NCBI GenBank assembly: GCA_027493525.1
Contig: JAOSKN010000003.1
Coordinates: 496,001-560,000, forward strand
Origin: Planctomycetota bacterium
GTDB taxonomy: Bacteria > Planctomycetota > SZUA-567 > H5-PLA8
Direction of reading: 5' to 3'
Length of the DNA stretch: 64,000 nt
The notes beneath the pieces are model-generated. The model was not told the DNA's origin. It did no database searches and worked only from the letters and a program-made list of their open reading frames with translations. Below are positions 46,365 to 48,484 of the stretch, piece after piece. The translations under genes were made by a program, and so were the position numbers. Within the stretch, counting starts at the first letter, position 1. Each line of letters opens with the position of its first letter.

Positions 46365-48484
46365 CTACTCCTTGGTCGGATCCGCTACGCGGCCCATGAA
46401 GAGGATTGCGCCGGAGGCGTTATCGCGGATCGCGAAGACGAAGGGGCGATCGGCCTTGAAGACCTTGGGCTCCTTGCGCTCTCGCGGGGGCGGCGCGCCG
46501 GGCTTGACCACGACGGCGGTCGCGGCGGCCGCCTCGGTGCCTTCCTCGTTGACGTCCACGAACGCCTTGTGGAGCACGAGGGAGACGTAGAGCATGCGCG
46601 AGCCGTCCATCCCCGAGAGGTCGCACGGGCCGTAGGCGAAGAGATCCTTGACGCCCAGCTTTTGCAGCGCGGGGCGAATGTCCTCGGCGCCCCAGGTGAC
46701 TTTGAACTTCGGCAAGGCCACCTGGACGTCCTCCTCCCGCATCCCGCCGCGCCACGTGTCCAGGTTCCCGACGCTTAAGCGCCCCTCGATCCCGGCGAGT
46801 CCATCCACGCGTCTTGGCAGAAGGATAAGCATCGAAAGCTCTCCGTTCACGTAAGGAAGTTCCAATGCTTGCAGCACGTCGGCGTCCTCGTAGTACCGTG
46901 CCTTCAGGGTCCGGTGCATGGTGGGCGCGTCGACGCGTTTGAGCGCCGTGAGGTGGAACGGCTCGGGCCGGGTGTTTGACTTGCTGAACGGGCTGCTCCA
47001 ATCGCCCTTGAAATAGATCGCGTTGACCAGAACCAGCACGGCATCGGGCGTCAGTTGTCCGGCGAGGATCAGTTCCTTGATCTTCTCCTGCGTGCGGTCC
47101 TCGACCCACGTGTTGATCGCCTTGCGGGAGGCTTCCGTCGCGCCCGCGAAATCAAGGCGCTCCAGCGGCGCGCCGTACTGCTTCTCGTTCAGTTCAAGAA
47201 AGGCCGGGAGGAACTCGTACTTCTTCGCGCCGAAGAGGCGATTGGCGACGGCGAGCTTGAAGCCTCGCGGCTGGCCGTCCTTCCGGGGCGCGTTCAGTTC
47301 CTGGATCAGTCCGGCGCAGGCGGCGTGGAAGCGTTCGCCGGCGAGCTTGAAACGCAGGCCCTGCTCCATTTCCCTTGCCGTGTTGCCCTTCGCGCCGGCA
47401 TAAGTCATCCCCAGTGCCGTTGAAATGCTGTAGGGCGAGAAGAAAAAGTTCCGCTCCTGGCCGCCGGCGAGTTTCGCATAGAGGTCCATGCCGAGCGCAT
47501 TAACGCCCGCGGCGATGGCCTGCTTCTCCTCTTCCGTGGCGGGATTCATGTCGCCTTTCAGCGGCCCGGTGTCCTCCTGGACGGCTTCGCCTCGCGGTCC
47601 CCGGTCGGTCTGGGAGCTTTGCGCATCGGGCCGTGCTGGACTCCGATCCTGGGTCGCCGCGCGCTCCGACCCGCGGAGCGAACTCGCCGCAAGGCCCAGG
47701 AGCGAAGCCAGCGCCAGCGCGGCCGCAAACGTTCCAAGCTTTGCCATCGTACTCCACCTCCTCATGGGGTTGAACGGGGGTAATTGCGGCGTTTGCGAAC
47801 TGTGCAAAAGGCGTTGCCAGGATGGGTTGGGTTCCGGCGCATCCGCGCGGCCGGATTCCGCGGCTTCCGCCGGCGCGCCCAGCAGCCGCTCGAGCTGTCC
47901 GTAGGCCAGGATCAGGCCCAGCAGGGCGAGCCGGCGGCGCAGCCGTTCCATGCCGCGATGCACCCGCGTTTTGGCCGTGTTCACGGGGCAGCCGAGGGTC
48001 TTTGCGATCCGCTGGTAGTCCAGGCCCGCTTGGTAATGCAGGACCAGCGGGAGGCGCTCCAGGTCGGGCAGCGCCTCAAGTTCAGCGCGGACGGCGTTGA
48101 GTTGCTCGGAGGCCTCGGCCGCCGCGTGGGGTTCCGGCTCGCGAGAGGAGTCCGCGCCGCGCGGGCCGGCGCGGTCCTCGCGGACGCGCTGGCGGCGGCG
48201 CTGGCGGAGCATCTGAAGGGCAGTGTTGGAGGCTACGCAGAGGATCCAGCTTGCCGCGGAGGCCTCGGCATGCTCGGCCGGGGGGTAAACGCGCCGGCAC
48301 GGTCGCGAAGCTGGAGGAGCGTCTCCTGGCAGGCGTCCTCGGCAAGGGCATCGTCGCCCAGGATGCGGCGGGATACGCGTTGAATCGCCGCGCCGTGCCG
48401 CTCGAGCAAGACGGTCCAGGCTTCCAGGTCGCGTTGCCGTGCCAAGCGCTTCAGCGCCTCCGCTGAGTTCATGGTCGTCTTCAT
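46365..48484 (-). CDS. ECF sigma factor followed in the same open frame by a hydrophobic segment and an inhibitory-type serpin; 1-nt frameshift in the sigma region at 48280-48285
   Basis: Sigma2 'DDALAEDACQETLLQLRDR...ASWILCVASNTALQMLRQRRRQR', sigma4 'LPLVLHYQAGLDYQRIAKTLGCPVNTAKTRVHRGMERLRRRL', TM 'MAKLGTFAAALALASLLGLAASS', serpin 'NFFFSPYSISTALGMTYAGAKGNTAREM' and RCL hinge 'EEGTEAAAATAVVV'. A strong internal RBS precedes ATG at 47747, so the serpin may also be made separately (46365-47747). Confidence 0.8.

Follow-up and report, generated by a model that had tools for sequence, protein, structure and literature searches.

The gene described here lies on the minus strand of a 64,000-nucleotide stretch (the window) of the genome of a Planctomycetota bacterium (GenBank assembly GCA_027493525.1, contig JAOSKN010000003.1, positions 496,001 to 560,000). 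It joins an extracytoplasmic function (ECF) sigma factor, through a linker and one hydrophobic segment, to a complete serpin. The combination of sigma factor and serpin almost certainly represents a conserved fusion. Sequence comparison suggests that the gene probably gives rise to two nested products, a sigma-serpin tethered to the membrane and a serpin that is exported in free form; the sigma part may be freed by proteolysis. It also appears fairly probable that this organization extends across the Planctomycetota, in that a large class of membrane-anchored ECF sigma genes would be nested genes from which the outside domain is also released alone, with the serpin branch acting as a protease alarm.

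A first-pass annotation of the window had described sigma region 4, a hydrophobic segment and a serpin in one frame without a stop codon. The open reading frame (ORF) and the matches to PF08281, PF04545 and PF00079 bear this out (Table 1). In this ORF the linker is followed by MAKLGTFAAALALASLLGLAASS and then by the complete serpin, which matches 207 sequences of solved serpins. The N-terminus of the sigma part is encoded in a different frame, from ATG 48484 to 48233. The protein has sigma regions 2 and 4, in the window copy in two frames, but no region 3, which identifies it as an ECF sigma factor, and the profile TIGR02937 scored above its cut-off in all four sequences scanned. The hinge of the reactive-centre loop agrees with the annotation as well: its P17-P8 residues read EEGTEAAAAT in the window, in accordance with the pattern E-E/K-G-T-E-A-A-A-A-T, and are similar across the fusions, apart from single deviations in L038, P0007 and P0010. 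By this hinge sequence the serpin is of the inhibitory type. The scissile bond is not assignable because the reactive loop exceeds that of well-studied serpins in length and is variable.

Table 1. Features of the sigma-serpin locus, in window coordinates.
Feature	Position	Strand	Details
Stop-free open frame: sigma region 4, linker, hydrophobic segment, full serpin	46365-48575	-	736 aa
Sigma-70 region 2 (first part)	48272-48409	-	PF04542, 28.3 bits, above cut-off; matches the N-terminus of unbroken relatives
C6 run where the frame shifts by one base	48280-48285	-	Relatives unbroken here
Sigma-70 region 4	47940-48098	-	PF08281, 47.6 bits; PF04545, 33.8 bits
Linker motif W..LL.S (WQRLLHSS in the window), between sigma region 4 and membrane segment	47796-47819	-	Predicted helix
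Internal Shine-Dalgarno sequence AGGAGG	47757-47762	-	9 nt 5' of ATG 47747
Internal in-frame ATG, putative start of a sigma-less serpin	47745-47747	-	460 aa; stop codon 46367-46365
Hydrophobic segment LGTFAAALALASLLGLAASS	47679-47738	-	Hydropathy 1.85 over 19 residues
Serpin domain, complete	46377-47504	-	PF00079, 378.8 bits, profile 3-370 of 370
Inhibitory-type hinge EEGTEAAAATA of the reactive-centre loop	46515-46547	-	Kept among fusions

The same architecture recurs in related genomes. A second, unbroken sigma-membrane-serpin gene (L037, 679 amino acids) is present in the genome of the window itself, and the fusion occurs in five of seven genomes of the family as well as in unnamed metagenome proteins. 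In total there are about 18 distinct fusions, with identities to the reference fusion of about 40-71%. The search for combined sigma and serpin architectures in related genomes, which the first-pass annotation had proposed, gave nine frames for which DNA is available, in five genomes. A stop codon between sigma and serpin, named there as evidence against a fusion, was found in none of the nine. G001 and G004 each have an unbroken frame, as do G002 (two, one ending at a contig edge) and G006 (three). A scan of 5.8 billion database proteins with the sigma-linker-membrane part as query revealed more full-length fusions with PF04542/PF08281 and PF00079, most of them nameless and some annotated as 'sigma-70 family RNA polymerase sigma factor'. 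The proposed architecture thus stands: the fusion is always in frame and conserved, with an inhibitory-type hinge and a hydrophobic segment that has an invariant Lys on its cytoplasmic side. Furthermore, the sigma-linker and serpin halves co-diverge (Mantel r 0.67, 0 of 2000 permutations), and in L035, L037 and L038 the fusion adjoins the same two genes, by appearance encoding a methyltransferase and a sugar-isomerase-like protein. Judged by its conservation, the co-divergence of its halves and the shared neighbourhood, the fusion is old within the family. The nine in-frame copies and the co-divergence rule out that stop codons are lacking by chance in GC-rich DNA.

The arrangement of the domains was examined in a structure model of a relative (L035, mean pLDDT 77, 16 sequences). 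This model shows the sigma part, a helix for the W..LL.S motif (pLDDT about 80-90), a membrane helix at residues 248-268 (first part of low confidence) and a disordered linker at residues 268-315 (pLDDT below 50). Its serpin part gives target TM-scores of up to 0.93 with solved serpins. The W, L, L and S of the linker motif are invariant columns in an alignment of 16 fusions. Hydropathy and the model agree on one chain with a sigma part, one predicted membrane segment and a predicted outside part, and most probably the serpin is located outside and the sigma part inside. From the sequence we infer that the hydrophobic segment anchors the long form in the membrane and that in the short form it is either a signal peptide or an anchor.

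All aligned fusions inspected possess a Met shortly before the invariant Lys where the membrane segment begins. In the window this codon is preceded by AGGAGG, and the positions reported for both in the first-pass annotation were correct (47762-47757 and 47747-47745, spacing 9 nt). The AGGAGG is the strongest Shine-Dalgarno (SD) sequence among the nine DNA copies (duplex -13.6 kcal/mol) and by itself gives p = 0.004 against synonymous resampling; it lies in a different codon register (AGG AGG). A GGAG core at ribosome-binding distance 5' of the junction Met is found in nine out of nine copies versus 1.8 expected (p = 2e-7), the expectation being obtained by redrawing synonymous codons according to the codon usage of the gene in question. 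Of the ribosome-binding sites (RBS) compared, the internal one is stronger than those at the candidate sigma starts. The ATG is flanked by a low GC content at third codon positions, and messenger RNA (mRNA) structure around it is weak, with positive z in all nine fusions. Since GGAG precedes the first ATG in 14 of 40 coding-like ORFs of the window, the organism uses such sites. A test based on duplex energy is weak per gene (Fisher p 3e-4) because motif codons such as those for Glu-Gly-Val pair with the anti-SD sequence anyway; the exact-core test with matched controls is clearer. SD and ATG are thus kept beyond the needs of the protein, in a region of weak local mRNA structure, as expected for a nested in-frame start. 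This lends support to the caveat of the annotation that the serpin may be translated separately. Use of the internal start is very probable on these grounds and, as the fused frame and the internal start are both conserved, it is likely that both products are made rather than either alone.

The mark is not confined to serpin fusions. Among 106 sigma ORFs with an extension, GGAG occurs at the junction Met in 35 of 53 cases versus 8.8 expected (p = 3e-20), and for the anchored sigma fusions other than the nine with a serpin the count is 26 of 44 (7.0 expected). Control Met codons elsewhere in the same ORFs have GGAG in 43 of 540 cases (38.8 expected). An independent set from other families, including a genome of about 40% GC, gave 12/30 versus 4.0 expected (p = 5e-6), with 19/243 versus 19.5 expected for its control Met codons. 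Of the anchored ECF sigma fusions that have a junction Met, 47 of 83 carry the mark, and fusions that have a membrane segment and lack the Met show no enrichment (22/72, 22.9 expected). The GGAG core is enriched at -15 (20 vs 3.6) and -12 (19 vs 4.0) from the ATG and hardly at other distances. The class with the SD also displays a dip in GC content at third codon positions (GC3), which is 0.53 versus 0.77 expected at codons -6 to -2 and 0.68 versus 0.80 at codons +4 to +7, and returns to normal after +8; other classes show little or no dip. The low GC3 on the 5' side of the SD could in part stem from an internal promoter. Between -27 and +36 the mRNA of this class also has weaker folding than its synonymous variants, with a mean z of +1.58 (p = 2e-8) as compared to +0.21 (not significant) in the class without SD. 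An illustrative case from the genome of the window is L147, in which AAGGAGGAGCAACCG-ATG precedes MKSKIAAVALATGLLLGAEAQA, a textbook-like signal peptide; several other anchored sigma genes are similar.

Some further observations concern these anchored sigma genes. In the ECF sigma ORFs L147 (2410), L150 (2434) and L158 (2488) a second signal-peptide-like sequence, which lies well 3' of the first membrane segment, starts at an internal SD-ATG; the predicted small exported products comprise 84-218 amino acids. The 6.6-Mb genome of the relative G004 (L194-L213) gives 122 sigma-profile matches; those listed are mostly frames of about 500-580 amino acids with a membrane segment after an ARAAAAK-like stretch and without a junction Met, and an outside domain was recognised in neither of the two sequences scanned.

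Several candidate fusions were rejected. In the Akkermansia sequence L082, which matches the query over 14-721, the serpin is a separate ORF of 418 amino acids with its own hydrophobic signal-like start. In the long serpin frames L042-L046 a sigma part was not detected, and these have an extra open frame or other N-termini instead. The third serpin of the window genome (L039:5770-6993, C2) has no upstream sigma part and, with a GC content below that of the rest of the genome, looks separately acquired. In other genomes of the phylum serpins occur as separate proteins. One relative harbors two fusions 5 kb apart (L034:418-2652 and L034:7640-9904), with an apparent GntR-like regulator among the intervening genes, and L040:4182-6920 encodes a variant of 913 amino acids with about 200 additional residues between membrane segment and serpin. 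In the window a perfect tandem repeat of the heptamer CTTCATA (9.6 copies, 46284-46350) lies directly 3' of the serpin stop codon, between the sigma-serpin gene and a convergent gene for an 805-amino-acid protein with a DsbA/thioredoxin-like domain (43827-46244).

In the mechanism that we propose, the long product would consist of the ECF sigma factor, the linker, one membrane segment and an extracytoplasmic inhibitory-type serpin, and would be tethered to the membrane. The short product would be translated from ATG 47747 by means of its own SD sequence and would carry the serpin without sigma factor; its N-terminal hydrophobic segment would direct export or act as an anchor. The tethered sigma factor is presumed to be inactive until the serpin outside reacts with or is cleaved by a protease, upon which proteolysis would free the sigma part. 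By analogy with the sigma factor IutY (see below), release could proceed by regulated intramembrane proteolysis; a site-2 protease homologue is encoded in the genome, as it is in all 14 control genomes. The free serpin might act as an abundant inhibitor pool, a buffer that sets the threshold, and the tethered copy as a tripwire that fires when proteases outnumber the free pool, so that defence genes are switched on. Activation by proteolysis following protease attack, for which we argue by analogy, is put forward tentatively, as a possibility somewhat short of even.

A number of points weigh against the proposal of two nested products and proteolytic release. Both products are predicted from sequence, and as sequenced the window has a sigma frame broken by one base, which would leave the short serpin as its sole product. 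No target gene, promoter or partner protease of the sigma-serpin was identified. In the long form, as in the short one, the hydrophobic segment might be a signal peptide that is cleaved off. Finally, the p-values given above assume that related copies are independent, and should be taken as strong rather than exact.

The break itself lies in the C6 run, where the first-pass annotation had noted a one-base problem. The relatives are unbroken here, a second one-base homopolymer break occurs in the same genome within the reactive-centre hinge codons of the third serpin (L039), and the assembly of six contigs is 88% complete versus 94% for a congener; for these reasons the break is probably a homopolymer error of the assembly. 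A programmed frameshift at the C6 run was rejected as the default explanation, as the relatives keep one frame and require no shift. A recent real mutation that inactivated the sigma factor and left the serpin as the only product is a less likely explanation. The window copy might be a decaying gene with a genuine break, in which the sigma factor is dead and the serpin is still made from the strong internal start. Such decay would fit the broken frame, the intact second fusion in the same genome and the strength of the internal SD sequence, next to which the SD of the copy's own sigma start codon is weak. However, similarity to L034 is about equal for the sigma part (62%) and the serpin part (66%), and the L039 break and the lower completeness fit assembly errors, so that we regard decay as unlikely.

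Other alternatives concern the family as a whole. If only the full-length protein were made, the SD-like sequence and the Met would reflect a protein motif or a slowing of ribosomes that aids membrane insertion. The Gly-Gly..Ser-Thr-Met-x-Lys motif is indeed also conserved as protein, in-frame GGA explains most copies, and a role in ribosome pausing has been proposed for SD-like sequences that precede membrane segments. Nevertheless, codon choice exceeds the demands of the motif, the window SD sits in a different codon register, and enrichment is found at fixed distances from the ATG and is lacking in the 72 fusions that have the membrane segment without Met. Moreover, GC3 and mRNA structure resemble those of a start only where SD and ATG are both present, which makes the explanation very improbable. 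It is also conceivable that the halves do not communicate and that the serpin is merely carried by the sigma factor that controls it, as an operon accident that became fixed. Signalling is conjectural, and the same anchored sigma module bears many unrelated or unnamed outside domains. Yet a useless fusion would easily have acquired a stop codon, whereas sequences as distant as 40-50% identity still have the domains fused in frame and retain both linker motif and membrane segment; passive carriage thus seems quite unlikely, if marginally less so than exclusive synthesis of the full-length protein. A different role for the serpin would be that of a guard which traps the site-1 protease, the sigma factor being freed only once the serpin is saturated or lost. 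The anatomy would be the same, and since serpins inhibit by a suicide mechanism, additional inhibitor would be available from the internal start. Sequence comparison does not separate this option from the tripwire mechanism that we prefer. Against it, no protease gene was recognised beside the fusion loci in the neighbourhoods read, the neighbours not having been profile-scanned, and we consider a guard function to be improbable.

To our knowledge, few transcription factors are known that directly read extracellular protease activity, and a serpin joined to a sigma factor would, if the proposal is correct, be a direct design for sensing it. The serpin branch would then obtain a free inhibitor and a sensor from a single reading frame, as a protease alarm. 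The internal start makes the larger point: a conserved second start in many anchored sigma factors would indicate that the outside domain is also needed alone, and one gene would determine how much tethered switch is made relative to the free exported domain. This is of interest for the Planctomycetota, which have scores of membrane-anchored sigma factors. No description of a serpin with a planctomycete sigma factor was found in the literature searched, the surveys by Jogler (2012) and Wiegand (2020) lying outside that scope, and a narrow search of the literature on internal starts gave no description of a conserved nested start in sigma factors of the anchored type.

C-terminal extensions that span the membrane have been described for sigma factors (PMC8999054). 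In IutY a single polypeptide holds both the sigma factor and a membrane extension, and proteolysis by Prc and RseP activates it (PMC8999054). Similar to IutY-type proteins (ECF243), the sigma-serpin has an N-terminal ECF sigma part, a C-terminal membrane segment, a predicted extracytoplasmic domain and a proposed proteolytic activation. Its outside domain, however, is a serpin instead of an anti-sigma domain of the iron cell-surface-signalling type, and it has a conserved internal start; Pfam gave no FecR-like anti-sigma domain in the sequences scanned, and no cytoplasmic anti-sigma domain was recognised. The actinobacterial groups ECF48, ECF52 and ECF53 (e.g. SCO4117) also have membrane-spanning C-terminal extensions and are thought to be driven by proteolysis (PMC8999054). 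They share the membrane helix and the outside domain with the sigma-serpin, but possess a zinc-finger anti-sigma domain, and their outside parts bind carbohydrates or are of other kinds where the protein described here has a serpin; a zinc-finger anti-sigma domain was not found by Pfam in the sequences scanned.

Planctomycete ECF factors with long C-terminal extensions are similar in sigma type and phylum, and likewise have many paralogues, one membrane segment and varied outside domains. Among the matches listed, the named planctomycete subfamilies remained below their cut-offs, with at most 52.6 bits versus 183.75 for TIGR02984 and at most 49.7 versus 124.55 for TIGR02989. Stand-alone bacterial serpins of the inhibitory type and conserpin, a solved consensus serpin, share the full serpin fold and the inhibitory-type hinge; unlike the serpin described here, which is fused to a sigma factor, stand-alone serpins such as L082 and the second serpin in L041 are separate proteins. 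A precedent for the nested start is Cas11b, which is produced from an internal in-frame start within a larger cas gene (PMC11899642). In both cases a second product would arise from such a start, but the small Cas product joins the CRISPR interference complex, whereas here the start would split a transcription factor from an exported domain.
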